A DNA stretch of 64,000 bases from Abditibacterium sp. (lineage in GTDB: Bacteria > Armatimonadota > Abditibacteriia > Abditibacteriales > Abditibacteriaceae): positions 3,036-67,035 of the forward strand of contig JAUJNG010000019.1 in assembly GCA_030448265.1 (NCBI GenBank), given 5' to 3'. Both the position numbers and the translations under genes were made by a program. This document shows, piece by piece, positions 3,019 through 42,347 of this stretch. Numbering within the stretch: the first letter of the stretch is position 1; each line of letters opens with the position of its first letter. The notes below the pieces were generated by a model. The model ran no database searches. It saw nothing but the letters and a program-made list of their open reading frames with translations, and had not been told where the DNA came from.

Positions 3019-3500
3019 GCGGAAAACGCCTTCACGTCGTCTTCGCCGATGACTTTGCCTGGGAATTTGGCGGCGACGTCTTCGATGGACACGCCCGCGT
3101 CTTTGGCGGCGCGGCGCGCGGCGGGTGTGGCGCGGATTCGAGAGGCCGCGCCCGAAGCGGGCGCTGGCGCGGCGAGATTTAAAACCGGCGCTTCGATTTC
3201 GCTGCTGGGCGCTTTTTTGGCGACAAGCGCCGCGTTTTCGGCTTCGATGTCGGGGAGGGGTTCGTTTTCGTCGCCGATGAGGGCCAGAATAGAGCCCGCC
3301 GGAACGATGGCTTTGGCGGGCGCGACGATTTTTCGCAAAATTCCGGCACCCTCGGCGGGCAGATCGAGGGTGGTTTTTTCGGTGATGAGTTCGCAGAGCG
3401 GCGCGCCGATTTCGATGCCGTCGCCCTCGCTTTTGAGCCATTTGCCGACGGTGGCTTCTTCCATGTTCTCGAAAATCTGGGGCAAGGCGACGCGAAACAT
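3015..3500 (-). CDS. Lipoyl-domain plus E3-binding-domain protein lacking an acyltransferase domain
   Basis: The start chosen (MFRVALPQIFENMEEATVG) gives about 161 residues. Residues 1-75 form a lipoyl/biotinyl domain with the attachment hairpin around LITEKTTLDL, where the Lys is the presumed lipoylated residue. A linker rich in Ala and Pro follows. Residues 123-160 (SRIRATPAARRAAKDAG to GEDDVKAF) match the peripheral subunit-binding domain of 2-oxoacid dehydrogenase E2 proteins. The catalytic E2 domain with its HxxxDG motif is absent, and the gene ends cleanly. It could be a swinging-arm adaptor of an oxoacid dehydrogenase whose core is elsewhere. It overlaps acpS by 4 bases. Confidence 0.8.
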   Translation of the reverse strand: MFRVALPQIFENMEEATVGKWLKSEGDGIEIGAPLCELITEKTTLDLPAEGAGILRKIVAPAKAIVPAGSILALIGDENEPLPDIEAENAALVAKKAPSSEIEAPVLNLAAPAPASGAASRIRATPAARRAAKDAGVSIEDVAAKFPGKVIGEDDVKAFSA

Positions 3501-4695: not shown

Positions 4696-4842
4696 AAGGC
4701 TAGATAAAGGCTAAAGGATGAAGGCTAAATCACTTCCAGTTTCTCGCAGCCCTGCTTGATTTAGCCTTTAGCCTTCATCCTTTAGCCTTTAAGAGAGCCT
4801 TCATCCTTTAGCCTTTAAGAGAGCCTTCATCCTTTAGCCTTT
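4696..4842. repeat. Inverted repeat, family B copy 2, with tandemly triplicated arm
   Basis: One arm lies at 4696-4731 and the matching arm at 4757-4790. The second arm is followed by two extra direct copies of a 26-base unit (AAGAGAGCCTTCATCCTTTA plus GCCTTT) at 4791-4816 and 4817-4842. This is the only family B copy with a repeated arm. It fills the gap before der. Confidence 0.92.
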
Positions 4843-6241: not shown

Positions 6242-6334
6242 GCTAAAGGCTAAAGGATGAAGGCTAAAGGCTAAATCAAGCCAAGCTGTGGAAACTGGAA
6301 GTGATTTAGCCTTCATCCTTTAGCCTTTAGCCTT
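6242..6334. repeat. Inverted repeat, family B copy 3 (der-plsY gap)
   Basis: The arm AGCTAAAGGCTAAAGGATGA begins directly after the der stop, and the complementary arm ends about 24 bases before plsY. The loop CAGCTTGG/ACTGGAAGTGA is the reverse complement of the family B2 loop, so this copy sits in the opposite orientation. Confidence 0.92.
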
Positions 6335-6357
6335 TAAGAGTCGCCTTCTTTGAATTT

Positions 6358-24937: not shown

Positions 24938-25651
24938 ATGCCCGAAGCCATCACCGTGACAAACGAAGAGCTGGCGCGCATCGAGCGATTCATCGCCGCC
25001 TACAACGCCATCGACGACTTTTTGCAGCGTCAAATGGGCGTGCCGCAAACGTTTCGCAGCGCGGTCGATGCCTTCGCCAAACGCCGTCCCTACTGGCGCG
25101 ACGCCGAAACCCTGCGCGTTTTCGCGGCGCTGCGCAACTTCCTGGTGCACGAAAAAACGCGGCCCTTCGATTATCCCTGCGTCCCAGGCGAGGCCGCGAC
25201 GCGCGAAATCGAGGCGATCCGCGAGCGTCTGACCCATCCAGCGTCCATCGGCGAACGCTTCGCCAAGCCGGTTTTGACGCTTTCACCCCAGGCGCCGCTC
25301 AAAACCGCGCTCGAACTGGTCGCCAAACGTGGCGTGAGCCGTTTTCCGATTTACGACGGGTCAAAATTCGTCGGCCTTCTCACCGAGAACGGCATGGCGC
25401 GTTTCGTGGCCGAAGTGGTGGCACGCGGCGCCGTTTTCGATGCCCACACTCCGATCCAAGACGTGCTGCCGCGCGAACCCAAACGCCCCAACTTTCGCTT
25501 TGCCGACGGGCAAGCGGCAGTGATGGAAGTCGCGTTTTGGTTTCACGAAGAGACGTTTTTGGAAGCGGTTCTCATCGCCGACGGCGCGAACCAGAAATCG
25601 CCCCTGCGCGGCATCGTCACGCGCGGCGATGTGGCGGGCTGGAGCGATTAA
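24938..25651 (+). CDS. CBS-domain protein with an N-terminal helical domain
   Basis: This 237-residue protein starts at MPEAITVTNEELARIERFIA. Residues 1-95 are helical (IAAYNAIDDFLQRQMG, LRVFAALRNFLVHEKTRP) and resemble the helical partner domain of small CBS-pair proteins. A pair of CBS motifs follows (FAKPVLTLSPQAPLKTALELV to FPIYDGSKFVGLLTENGMARF, and a second to GIVTRGDVAGWSD). CBS pairs bind adenine nucleotides; the target is unknown. The stop codon lies within the first attC-like core site, marking one boundary of the cassette array. Confidence 0.8.
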   Translation: MPEAITVTNEELARIERFIAAYNAIDDFLQRQMGVPQTFRSAVDAFAKRRPYWRDAETLRVFAALRNFLVHEKTRPFDYPCVPGEAATREIEAIRERLTHPASIGERFAKPVLTLSPQAPLKTALELVAKRGVSRFPIYDGSKFVGLLTENGMARFVAEVVARGAVFDAHTPIQDVLPREPKRPNFRFADGQAAVMEVAFWFHEETFLEAVLIADGANQKSPLRGIVTRGDVAGWSD

Positions 25652-25751
25652 CGGCCAAGCTCACCCGCCGCCGGAAGCCGAAGCGAAGCCGAGGAACGAG
25701 GCGTAGCGCAAGCTGTAGCTGTAGGCGGTCGGGCGCAGCGCCTTGTTAGGC
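25646..25751 (-). other. attC-like integron recombination site 1
   Basis: On the minus strand the site runs from GCCTAAC (25751-25745, fits the RYYYAAC consensus) to GTTAATC (25652-25646, close to GTTRRRY). Next to these are AAGGCGCTGCGCCCGACCGC and, at the other end, GGCGGCGGGTGAGCTTGGCC, which pair imperfectly as the L boxes of attC sites do. The central part forms further hairpins. It follows the DUF1259 gene, as a cassette attC should. Confidence 0.8.
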
Positions 25752-25799
25752 CGTTGTTGGTTGGCATCGGCACCTGTTTGGGATGCCAACGCCAACCTT

Positions 25800-26789
25800 T
25801 TAGCCCATCCCCATCATGCCTTTGTGCTTGCCCAACTCGTTGAGCGCGGCGCGAAAGCCTTGCGCCAAAGTGGTTGCCGAACCGCGTCCGTAATAATGCA
25901 GGAACATCATGCGCGGCTGCTCGCCAATCATGTGGTTATGAACTGCAACGACTTCCAGATTGTTGCGGCGCAACGCCTGAATAACCGGATTGACTTCCGG
26001 CTCCAGCATAGCAAAATCGCCCGCAATGTGCGCCGCATCCGGCTCACCCGCGAACGCCGCCCAAGTATTCAAGCCGATGGACTTCGTGATGTGCGCGCCC
26101 ATTGCTTGAACGGTCAAGTCGTCGCGCCCAATGGTGTATTTATACGTTGGGCCGTTGACTTTGCCGGTGTTCCCGACAACCCTATCGAGTGCAGGCAGGT
26201 CGAAAATCTCCTTGCCGGTGCGCTCTGGCGGTGGCCCTGCGGGCGGCTGATTCGCTGGAAAGAGTTTGGTCGCTTGAATAGCAGCCGCATAACGGCGGGC
26301 TAAACTGGCTACATCGCCCATGCCGTGAACATGCATATAGAAGATGCGCGGCTGCTCGTAGAAAAAGTGGTTGTGAATGGCGCTGACTTCCAAACCGTTG
26401 GCGTGCGCTGCGGAAATGAGCGGATTGACTTCTTCTTCCAACAAGACCGTATCGCTCATCAAGACGGCGCTTTGGCCGTTGAGCGTGCGCTTGACCGACA
26501 CCCAACCGCCAAAGCCCAACGCGGTGGGCACGGCTTCGCCTTTGACCCTCACCTTGAGGTCGGCGCGTGGCAGTGGGATGGTGTAAACACCTTCTTCTTC
26601 AACGTAGTTCCCTTTCTTCCCCAATGCGGCATCCAGCGCGGCCATGCCCTCTGGCATCAGCGGCGGAGTTTTGTCCCGCCTCGGCTTGGCTTCGGCTTGT
26701 TCAACACTCTTAAAACCTACGGCTCCTGCTGCACCTAAAGCAGCGACGGCGCGCAACAGTTGGCGACGGTTGAAACTATTTCCGTTCAT
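25800..26789 (-). CDS. DUF1259 (LppY/LpqO-like) protein in a gene cassette
   Basis: The protein has 329 residues. The N-terminus NRRQLLRAVAALGAAGAVG looks like a twin-arginine or lipid-free export signal. Two DUF1259 units follow, each with an HNHxxxEQPRxxxxHxxGxG signature (AIHNHFFYEQPRIFYMHVHG near 143-162 and AVHNHMIGEQPRMMFLHYYG near 288-307). The His-rich signatures suggest metal binding. DUF1259 proteins are exported and of unknown function in actinobacteria and others. The gene is bounded by attC-like sites on both sides and oriented like a cassette gene. Confidence 0.82.
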   Translation of the reverse strand: MNGNSFNRRQLLRAVAALGAAGAVGFKSVEQAEAKPRRDKTPPLMPEGMAALDAALGKKGNYVEEEGVYTIPLPRADLKVRVKGEAVPTALGFGGWVSVKRTLNGQSAVLMSDTVLLEEEVNPLISAAHANGLEVSAIHNHFFYEQPRIFYMHVHGMGDVASLARRYAAAIQATKLFPANQPPAGPPPERTGKEIFDLPALDRVVGNTGKVNGPTYKYTIGRDDLTVQAMGAHITKSIGLNTWAAFAGEPDAAHIAGDFAMLEPEVNPVIQALRRNNLEVVAVHNHMIGEQPRMMFLHYYGRGSATTLAQGFRAALNELGKHKGMMGMG

Positions 26790-26865
26790 TGTTTTGCCCC
26801 TTCACTTTTCATTTTCTGTCTTTTTCGTGTAATTTACAAGATTGCGGGACACATCCAAGTCGCGC

Positions 26866-26975
26866 GCACCAACACAACGACCAAGCTCACCCGCCGCCGG
26901 AAGCGCAACGAGGAGGAACGACGAGCGAAGCTGTAGGCGGTCGGATGAAGCGCCTTGTTCCGCGGCTGTTGGTGC
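26866..26975 (-). other. attC-like integron recombination site 2
   Basis: On the minus strand GCACCAACA (26975-26967) pairs with TGTTGGTGC (26874-26866) as the outer arms. Internal GGAACAAGGCGCTTCATCCG and CGGCGGGTGAGCTTGGTCGTT match the L-box regions of site 1 almost base for base. It starts 9 bases after the stop codon of the unknown zinc-ribbon gene, the usual cassette arrangement. Confidence 0.8.
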
Positions 26976-26983
26976 CTTTTGGG

Positions 26984-28150
26984 TCAATCGTCGAGTTTGG
27001 GTGTTTCATCGAATCCTACTTGTCCAATTTGTAAGGCAACATTAAATAGCACTTGACTAACCATTGACTGAGGGCATCTACGATCCCGTTTGAAAGGCTT
27101 AAGTTCCCATCGTTCGACCCGCGCACGATCAACTTGGCGTTGTATTGATCCTACCACAGTGTTGGCAGCGTGTTGCTTCGCCACGCGCTCACGCATATAA
27201 AAAGCTGCTGCGTCTCTGCCAGCTCGCCAAATCATATTGTATGCTTGACCAACTGAATAACTTTCCAACAATTCTGTAACGACGAGCAAAGTCTTCTCGC
27301 CAAAATTCAGTGGAAGTTGATGTTCCTTCAGAACTACCGCAAGGTATTCGAGACATTCGTTTAATGCGACTTTTCGCCAAAGTTGTAATCTTTGGTCATG
27401 CCATCTGTAAGGCCACCATTCTTTTGTTCTGAGTGTTGTCTCAAGTTTAATCACCAGTTGTCGTGTCGCCTCAACATCATTACCGGTCGTTAGCGCCCAA
27501 TACACTTGAGGAAGTCCCATGCTAACAGGCTCTCCGTTTTCAAATATGAAAACGTCGGGCGGTGTCATAGGATGAATAATCAAAAGGCCATTTTTGAACA
27601 ACTGTCTCACAATCTCCACGTTGTAAGATTCAGTGGGCGAAAGTGGTTGGGTGACGGCAGATAAAGGCCCGAAATAGCTCAGGTCTTCGGAAGCGCCAAT
27701 GCGGACAAATGCCAGTAAGTAAACCGCATCCTCGAAGGAAATTGAGTGAATATCTAATGGTTTTCGCGGTTCAAGCGGAAATGTCTCTTGAATAATTTTA
27801 CGCTGATGTTCAATTTCTGCTAACCGTTGAGCTTTCTGGATTTCCCTTTCTTCACTTACACATACAGCACATAATTCGTCGGTTTCCCCCCAACGATACT
27901 TTTGCTGATATTCAGAACGGCTTGTATAAATTTGCGGTTGTTCGCAACGTGGGCAAGTGTGATTTGAAGAGAAGGCATTGCAATTTTCATCTACAATGGC
28001 TTTGAGGTCTCGGCTGGACAACGCAAAATCACGCGCCAAGCTCGTTACGCTGTGCGTGAAATTTGGTTCCTCTGCGAGTTCCCAGTAGAGATGACAGATT
28101 TTCTTGAGACGTTCGTCATCCGTCAGAAACTCCACGCGGATTGAAAACAT
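26984..28150 (-). CDS. Unknown protein with a zinc-ribbon-like Cys motif, in a gene cassette
   Basis: I do not recognise a family for this 388-residue protein. A C-x2-C...C-x2-C pair (CPRCEQPQIY and ELCAVC, residues about 70-97) suggests a zinc ribbon. A charged segment follows (SEEREIQKAQRLAEIEHQRK), then a long mixed alpha/beta region with several Trp (TKEWWPYRWHDQRLQLWRKV) and a C-terminal helical part. No membrane helix is present. Codon use is more AT-tolerant than in the neighbours. attC-like sites bracket it, so it was probably acquired as a cassette; a defence or stress function is only a guess. Confidence 0.7.
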   Translation of the reverse strand: MFSIRVEFLTDDERLKKICHLYWELAEEPNFTHSVTSLARDFALSSRDLKAIVDENCNAFSSNHTCPRCEQPQIYTSRSEYQQKYRWGETDELCAVCVSEEREIQKAQRLAEIEHQRKIIQETFPLEPRKPLDIHSISFEDAVYLLAFVRIGASEDLSYFGPLSAVTQPLSPTESYNVEIVRQLFKNGLLIIHPMTPPDVFIFENGEPVSMGLPQVYWALTTGNDVEATRQLVIKLETTLRTKEWWPYRWHDQRLQLWRKVALNECLEYLAVVLKEHQLPLNFGEKTLLVVTELLESYSVGQAYNMIWRAGRDAAAFYMRERVAKQHAANTVVGSIQRQVDRARVERWELKPFKRDRRCPQSMVSQVLFNVALQIGQVGFDETPKLDD

Positions 28151-28251
28151 AATAATTGCCTAATGAGGATAGATTTGCCATATCAATTTTACAAAAAAAG
28201 AGATTATAGGCTCTGATATTTCAAACGGGCACGGCCAAGCCGCGCGCAGCC

Positions 28252-28333
28252 GCAGAACGGCAAGCTCACCCGCGCGTTAATCGGTTTGGTAAAGAACGAA
28301 AAACTAAGCGCGCGTCGGGTGCAGCGGTTTGAT
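28252..28333 (-). other. attC-like integron recombination site 3
   Basis: On the minus strand ATCAAAC (28333-28327), CGCTGCACCCGACGCGCG and, after a loop of about 35 bases, CGCGCGGGTGAGCTTGCC with GTTCTGC (28258-28252). Core spacing and the GGGTGAGCTTG box match sites 1 and 2. No gene lies between it and uppS upstream, so it may be the residue of a lost cassette or the array's first site. Confidence 0.7.
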
Positions 28334-28382
28334 TTACTTGCAGCGTCTATCGGTTCCAGTTTCCTGGTTTTTGAACTTCCCT

Positions 28383-28439
28383 GAGAACCCGCAAAGGGCA
28401 GGTTTTGGCCCGACCAAATCCTGCCCTTTGCGGGTTCTC
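28383..28439. repeat. Perfect hairpin downstream of uppS
   Basis: The arm GAGAACCCGCAAAGGGCAGG is complemented perfectly by CCTGCCCTTTGCGGGTTCTC, with a 17-base loop. No T-run follows on the minus strand (uppS sense), so it may be a repeat or an mRNA 3'-end structure rather than a canonical terminator. It separates uppS from the cassette array. Between it and uppS (28443-28618) only a small CCGCAAA/TTTGCGG hairpin is seen. Confidence 0.75.
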
Positions 28440-28618
28440 TTTTGCTTGTCAAACTACAACTTTGCCTCATCGCGCTGTCAGTAAATCAATGTTATTCACC
28501 CGCAAATTTGTCGGGGAAACGACGTGTTTTAGACGTAAAACAGGGCTTAAAAAACCGCAAATTTTCCTTTGCGGTAAAAGTCCGTTTTGACTGGTCGTTA
28601 CCCCGCAAAAGTGATTCT

Positions 28619-37666: not shown

Positions 37667-37695
37667 GAGCGTGAGCGGATTCTTAAAACGATGCC

Positions 37696-37798
37696 CGCCA
37701 ACTAAGCTCATCCGTTGGAAGCCAAAGTGACGAACGAGCGAAGCAAGATCGGAGCAATAGACGGTCGGGTGCAGCGCCTTGTCGTGCGGTCGTTGGGA
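37696..37798 (-). other. attC-like integron recombination site 4
   Basis: On the minus strand TCCCAAC (37798-37792), ACAAGGCGCTGCACCCGACCG, a loop of about 45 bases, CGGATGAGCTTA and GTTGGCG (37702-37696). It has the same L-box layout as sites 1-3. It closes the cassette carrying the CHAT-like gene, about 180 bases after that gene's stop codon, and lies 29 bases from the GGDEF/EAL gene end. Confidence 0.75.
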
Positions 37799-38769: not shown

Positions 38770-38861
38770 GTAGAACGATCAAGATAATCCGCCGCCTGAA
38801 ACGCAGTGAGGAGAAGCGACGAGCGAAGCTCTGGGCGGGCGGGTGTGGCGCCTTGTTGTGC
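38770..38861 (-). other. attC-like integron recombination site 5
   Basis: On the minus strand GCACAAC (38861-38855), AAGGCGCCACACCCGCCCGC, a central loop of about 35 bases, GGCGGCGGATTATCTTGATC and GTTCTAC (38776-38770). It lies upstream of the CHAT-like gene in the same orientation as sites 1-4. The 38600-38769 stretch between them holds only a small TGTAG...CTACA hairpin. Confidence 0.72.
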
Positions 38862-39410: not shown

Positions 39411-39493
39411 TGAAGGCTAAAGGATGAAGGCTAAAGGCTAAATCAAACACAGCGCGAATGATTTAGCCTTTAGCCTTCATCCTTTAGCCTTTC
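39411..39493. repeat. Inverted repeat, family B copy 4, between atpD and atpC
   Basis: Arms of TGAAGGCTAAAGGATGAAGG type and complement surround a loop CAAACACAGCGCGAATGATT. It begins immediately after the atpD stop codon and ends 6 bases before the atpC start. Confidence 0.93.
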
Positions 39494-42267: not shown

Positions 42268-42347
42268 AAGGCTAAAGGCTAAAGGCTGAAGGCTAAATCA
42301 TTCGAACTTGGTTGATTTAGCCTTTAGCCTTTAGCCTTTAGCCTTTT
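42268..42347. repeat. Inverted repeat, family B copy 5, between atpA and atpG
   Basis: AAGGCTAAAGGCTAAAGGCT arms with their complement surround an ATCATTCGAACTTGGTTGAT loop. It starts 4 bases after the atpA stop and ends 7 bases before the atpG start on the minus strand. Confidence 0.93.

Follow-up and report, generated by a model that had tools for sequence, protein, structure and literature searches.

Dispersed attI-like modules and small cassette arrays in an Abditibacterium genome with a single integron integrase gene

The DNA considered here, called the window throughout, is a stretch of 64,000 nucleotides from Abditibacterium sp. (assembly GCA_030448265.1, contig JAUJNG010000019.1, positions 3,036 to 67,035 of the forward strand), and we read it, with a probability of about 0.7, as carrying two small cassette arrays of a dispersed chromosomal integron whose satellite attI sites are probably served in trans by a single integron integrase, IntI. 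The larger of these, array 1, begins with a module that copies the segment of about 100 bp, containing attI and the intI promoter (Pint), that lies directly upstream of the intI gene on another contig, C21. The likeness suggests that the module was either copied from the attI/Pint segment of the C21 gene or shares a common ancestry with it. Array 1 is more than a plain cluster of attC sites lacking an integrase (CALIN), as it begins with an attI-like module.

One integrase gene and twelve attI-like sites

In the genome, which comprises 4.95 Mb in 43 contigs and is 93% complete, one protein reaches 384 bits as an integron integrase, the cut-off for that family being 265. It is encoded on C21 by an intact open frame of 333 amino acids and matches Vibrio cholerae IntI4 over its full length (structure 2a3v; 279 bits), the alignment showing both the integron-specific insert and the RHRY-type motifs. 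To the left of this gene lie three attC sites of the same family as those in the window, on the minus strand and with small open reading frames (ORFs) between them, and the locus is a complete chromosomal integron with intI, an adjacent attI and an array. A first-pass annotation of the window, made from its letters alone, had described array 1 as a CALIN with no integrase gene in the window, and the absence holds: no intI in the window exceeds the family cut-off, and tblastn with IntI gave no match there. The CALIN label stands to the extent that at least two attC sites occur in the window without a nearby intI, but it needs qualification, because the genome has an intact intI and array 1 starts with a copy of that gene's attI/Pint segment. 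Since intI on C21 is intact, the genome to which the window belongs may have a working integrase.

The window module is one of twelve attI-like sites that fall into two related families; each of the twelve lies at the 5' end of a cassette, and intI accompanies one of them. The family-1 core, ATGTTATTNACCCGCAAATNTG, was searched genome-wide with up to three mismatches and with a control. Seven places were found at 0-1 mismatch (control 0), all seven at the start of a cassette cluster and in the same polarity, and a weak second box with three mismatches lies 80 bp away inside the C24 module. The family-2 core, GCGGCATAATATACTG|TT, is found at five places, every one a cassette start (control 0), and this family is conserved over about 75 bp. 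No copy of either core was found in the genome away from cassettes, and in 290 other genomes of the phylum the family-1 core gave only matches with 2-3 mismatches, which were taken as chance. What marks the sites as attI is a segment shared with the sequence next to intI and a cassette joined at G|TT; in the window copy, which sits exactly at the 5' start of array 1 with uppS ending about 40 bp beyond it, the junction reads GAT, not GTT.

The cassettes can be recognised by their ends, because each starts with 12 bases that are the reverse complement of the opening 12 bases of its own attC, and this signature was used to locate cassette starts. For the twelve attI-adjacent cassettes, whose starts were set by the attI motif alone, 98 of 108 positions match the cassette's own attC. 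Shuffling the attC ends among the twelve gave a mean of 55.4 (standard deviation 5.6), with none of 10000 shuffles reaching 98, and the junctions between cassettes and modules therefore lie where expected. Individually, ten of the twelve match at 8-9 of the 9 positions, and the distal cassettes of arrays have a poorer end match than the attI-adjacent ones. Like integron gene cassettes, they consist of one ORF followed by attC, with ends that form a complementary core in the circular state.

Because a strict string pattern for attC recovered one site only, a covariance model was used instead. This model, R1, was built from six attC sites on other contigs, with the window sites excluded, and gave five strong matches in the window, all on the minus strand, the next best having an E of 0.25. 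The three attC-like sites proposed at 25646-28333, all in one direction, are among them (39.6 to 72.8 bits), and the gene-then-attC order that had been noted is borne out as well, each of the ORFs 25800-26789 and 26984-28150 having a site after it. Over the whole genome R1 finds at least 42 attC sites at E <=0.01. They are spread over about 20 contigs and form about 31 clusters, each with one to three sites; the number of sites is a lower bound, because only 150 first-look candidates were scored. In named integron hosts, L092 and L098 among them, R1 also recovers sites close to intI. The first-pass annotation would have given up its reading had such sequences been spread over the genome without relation to gene ends; they are spread over the genome, but as ORF-plus-attC cassettes with matching ends.

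The attC sites have RYYYAAC/GTTRRRY ends, and between these lie L boxes that pair imperfectly and leave some bases unpaired. In an alignment of eleven sites, 90.6% of the cells are standard pairs, as against 33-47% when the alignment is slid by 1-3 columns, and 8 changes are two-sided (compensatory). Folding favours the bottom strand in 9 of 11 sites, the window site 25646-25751 not being one of these, and the window sites have low absolute pfold values.

A similar arrangement is found in G002, a genome of the same family, which has one intI and 73 scattered attC matches, and in which the segment before intI recurs beside other attC clusters. Its core, GCGGCATAATATATTG|TT, is equivalent to family 2 of the Abditibacterium genome and has five perfect copies and four that differ by one mismatch; six copies lie in a common module, about 165 bp long and constant in its spacing, that ends just before the intI start. 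Two G002 modules retain IntI fragments, which indicates duplication of the platform followed by loss of intI. Judged by its sequence, G002 repeats the satellite pattern independently, with an attI module of its own. In G023, from another family, there is a long array and a second copy of the intI-upstream segment (81% over 146 bp), located on a short contig with an attC match, and because of this copy the satellite feature may extend more widely.

G002 also carries a repeated mini-ORF of about 45 codons that ends in HSVTV(E/A)VD and is preceded by GGCTGTGGCATAATAGCGGGT, with copies in L245 (about 1400-1430, 2041-2252 and 3060-3216), L234 (6981) and L244 (3456). Most copies have half an attI-like end, GCGGCATAATATATTG|TT or a variant, directly after them, and the mini-ORF looks like a cassette type with an attI-like end in place of attC.

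Probable trans service of the satellite arrays and its alternatives

The IntI of C21 would act in trans on the satellite modules besides its own attI, inserting and removing cassettes: an attC folded on its bottom strand would recombine with a double-stranded attI, the cassette would be joined at a G|TT-type core, and small groups of cassettes would gather at several attI sites instead of forming a single long array. That the satellite arrays are probably served in this way fits with the observations, because the attC family is shared by the intI array and the satellite arrays, several attC sites at satellites fold well on the bottom strand (a pfold of 0.67 at C33 and 0.46 at C4), and the junctions are exact. 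In alignment, the attC of C39 is very similar to the one that comes first in the intI array. The satellites carry differing cassettes, and their cargo is almost without paralogy. The module copies themselves may have arisen through duplication of the integron platform accompanied by loss of intI.

A further-reaching version, which we put forward tentatively and at somewhat short of even odds, is that of a polycentric integron, in which one trans-acting integrase feeds a dozen attI landing modules across the chromosome and the modules are duplicated units that diverged in step with the host lineage. The module would then consist of the attI core and, in the best conserved copies, the intI promoter region, and cassettes would be captured in many genomic contexts.

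Several points weigh against trans service. Recombination at the satellites is deduced, with none observed, and there is no strain pair with a cassette gained or lost at a satellite site. About 19 of the 31 clusters, array 2 of the window included, have no attI-like motif by the patterns used. Cassette boundaries led to four of the five family-2 sites, leaving C21:29962 as the only independent match. Finally, the window attC sites of array 1 fold poorly, with bottom-strand pfold values for the canonical form of 0.02, 0.02 and 0.002 (that of the attC opening the intI array is 0.79), and the junction reads GAT. Because of this low bottom-strand pfold, and of a GAT junction with a matching altered R'', array 1 may be inactive; it looks partly decayed, and the window may hold the remains of a system that still operates in other parts of the genome.

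The same observations could be carried further, to a genome in which whole platforms (intI, attI and cassettes) were duplicated, all but one lost intI and the arrays fell into disuse, the modules being debris and not landing sites. The degenerate attC sites and GAT junction of the window fit such a history, as do the IntI fragments beside the two G002 modules and the fact that, among the family-1 modules of the Abditibacterium genome, a TATAAT-like Pint box is retained only at the intI copy in the alignment; a tblastn search for IntI remnants beside the satellite modules of this genome found none. We nevertheless regard disuse throughout as unlikely, since duplication alone would not yield cassettes that differ between satellites with almost no paralogy of cargo, and since the end matches of ten of the twelve attI-adjacent cassettes, the good folding of the C33 and C4 sites and the closeness of the C39 attC to that of the intI array all speak against it.

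Quite improbable is the proposal that cassettes were inserted, as at attG sites, into ordinary chromosomal repeats such as promoters or terminators that resemble each other by chance, with intI happening to lie beside one. Many of the module-less clusters do begin at G|TT, as attG sites would (Loot et al. 2024, as cited in PMC11023631 and PMC12444791), and the modules hold hairpin-like CCGCAAA/TTTGCGG elements. Against this, no core was found in the genome without cassettes, and the similarity spans 75-165 bp, in the window reaching into the intI promoter. The region after uppS in G002 and in G001, a genome of the same genus, is ordinary chromosome with no attC and no copy of the core, which again does not fit insertion into a standing repeat, and indicates that the window array is lineage-specific or was lost in the others. 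In G001 the window flanks, the uppS/frr and CBS/nth genes, lie on separate contigs and the flanking order has changed.

That the repeats are generic intergenic repeats and not attC at all, for which one could cite single-strand folding energies of the window sites that are not below those of shuffled sequences, is very unlikely in view of the covariation, the blind recovery by R1, the complementarity of cassette ends and an intact IntI whose gene has sites of this attC family next to it.

G001 also has attC-rich contigs of 4-5 kb (L294-L297) with no detectable intI, for which an unassembled array or contamination is possible, and the attC matches on these tiny contigs were not used as evidence.

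Known systems and what the arrangement would mean

Complete integrons have been published from phyla besides the Proteobacteria, and also from Archaea (PMC9024848, PMC9668308). The first-pass annotation had presented cassettes outside the Proteobacteria as an extension of their range; they are indeed found here, but the surprise is weak, because integrons have been published beyond that group and because IntI relatives occur in many phyla in a scan of genome contigs from which this genome was excluded. Non-Proteobacteria integrons, CALINs, attG sites and partial attI sites are all already known; what appears to be new is the dispersal of attI-like landing modules over a genome with one intI. 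In a search of the open-access literature, no paper was found on several dispersed attI sites together with one intI in one genome.

The nearest general comparison is with sedentary chromosomal integrons, such as those of Vibrio, which also have a chromosomal intI, an attI, a genome-wide attC family and mixed small cargo genes. They form one long array, unlike the approximately 31 loci of 1-3 sites found here, and a typical integron has a single attI next to intI, in contrast to the several attI-like sites of this genome; outside class 1, attI is poorly described (PMC9024848). CALINs share with the satellite arrays the presence of attC cassettes without a nearby intI. An IntI located elsewhere can mobilise a CALIN in trans (PMC12444791). 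In the integron reaction, IntI recombines the folded bottom strand of attC with an attI that is double-stranded, and the cassette ends up at attI. What would not be expected of CALINs is the presence of an attI-like module at the head of twelve clusters, and in one case this module is an 89% copy of the attI/Pint segment that belongs to the intI of the same genome. Xanthomonas likewise has one intI locus and CALINs at several other fixed chromosomal loci, and the part of PMC12444791 that is available was not found to mention attI copies at those CALINs, whereas they are present here.

Cassettes at chromosomal places away from intI also recall attG sites, which PMC12444791 describes as neither attC nor attI in sequence, unlike the present sites, which share an extended module with the true attI. 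Extra attI pieces in cassette arrays have been described as the Delta-attI cassettes of class 1 and 2 integrons (PMC12901181), and the cores of these, AAACAAAG|TT and AATAAAATG|TT, resemble AATAACATTG|TT here. In Delta-attI, however, a partial attI replaces attC at the 3' end of a cassette within one integron (PMC12901181), whereas the modules of this genome are at the 5' start of arrays that lie apart on the chromosome.

If the satellites are served in trans, many loci could capture cassettes, each within a different chromosomal setting, and at least some apparent CALINs would have a landing site of their own. Satellite attI sites would be missed in routine annotation, because standard tools ignore attI outside class 1. 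Satellite modules also suggest a route by which integrase-less arrays arise, and the natural attI variants, in two sets (the two families of this genome and a further one in a sister genus), would make the sequence needs of attI readable. Insertion of cassettes at chromosomal attG sites was reportedly described by Loot et al. in 2024.

Features and cargo of the arrays

The features of the two arrays are collected below. Array 1 (25646-28579) consists of three attC sites, two ORF cassettes and a first cassette without an ORF. The attI-like copy at its start had been overlooked in the first reading, as had the whole of array 2, an attC pair enclosing an ORF.

Features of the two cassette arrays of the window, in window coordinates
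Feature	Position	Strand	Evidence
attC, distal (last) of array 1	25646..25751	-	R1 64.3 bits, E 1.6e-16
Cassette ORF, array 1, 329 amino acids, two DUF1259 (PF07485) repeats	25800..26789	-	Pfam 263 bits
attC, middle of array 1	26872..26963	-	R1 72.8 bits, E 4.5e-19
Cassette ORF, array 1, 388 amino acids	26984..28150	-	ORF list; Pfam and PADLOC without match
attC of first cassette, array 1, non-canonical R'' GTAAATC	28252..28337	-	R1 39.6 bits, E 3.6e-9
First cassette, array 1, about 150 bp, apparently ORF-less	28338..28487	-	cassette-end match
Satellite attI-like module, intI absent, cassette junction at 28487	28478..28579	+	BLAST 89% over 101 bases, E 1.1e-31
attC, array 2, distal, degenerate	37693..37787	-	R1 39.7 bits, E 3.5e-9
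Cassette ORF, array 2, 205 amino acids	37982..38599	-	ORF list; Pfam and PADLOC without match
attC, array 2, proximal	38770..38861	-	R1 49.6 bits, E 3.7e-12

The 5' start of the first cassette, GATTTACTGACA, differs at 2 positions from the complement of its own attC, GATTTACTTGCA. GATTTAC replaces GTTRRRY at both ends of this cassette (28331-28337 and 28481-28487), and since the altered R'' and the altered start still match, its core is non-canonical yet self-consistent. The cassette contains an inverted repeat (28383-28439; 26-bp arms, 96% complementary) that is possibly a terminator. At the other end of array 1, the 3' GTT of the distal attC shares bases with the stop codon of a CBS-domain gene (24938-25651). 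The GTT core that is altered in the attC of the first cassette is shifted in the distal attC of array 2, where the pfold of the canonical fold is <1e-6 on both strands. No attI-like motif was found by the patterns used upstream of the proximal attC of array 2. An Rfam search of the window at the gathering cut-off gave no match, and ARAGORN found no tRNA in it.

Among the cargo elsewhere in the genome, a three-cassette cluster (L075, C24:121052-122416) encodes Nudix-like proteins, two of which are about 31% identical, and a cassette of the intI array (L011, 16759-17142) encodes a protein with a retroviral-type aspartyl protease domain that gave a weak PADLOC candidate match to PDC-M08B.

Outside the arrays, the sequence AAAGGCTAAAGGATGAAGG occurs in the window in intergenic inverted and tandem copies (14 matches, with none expected), for instance at 2559-2649, 4706-4842, 6245-6335, 39412-39492 and 42274-42346, and a similar sequence was matched in G001.

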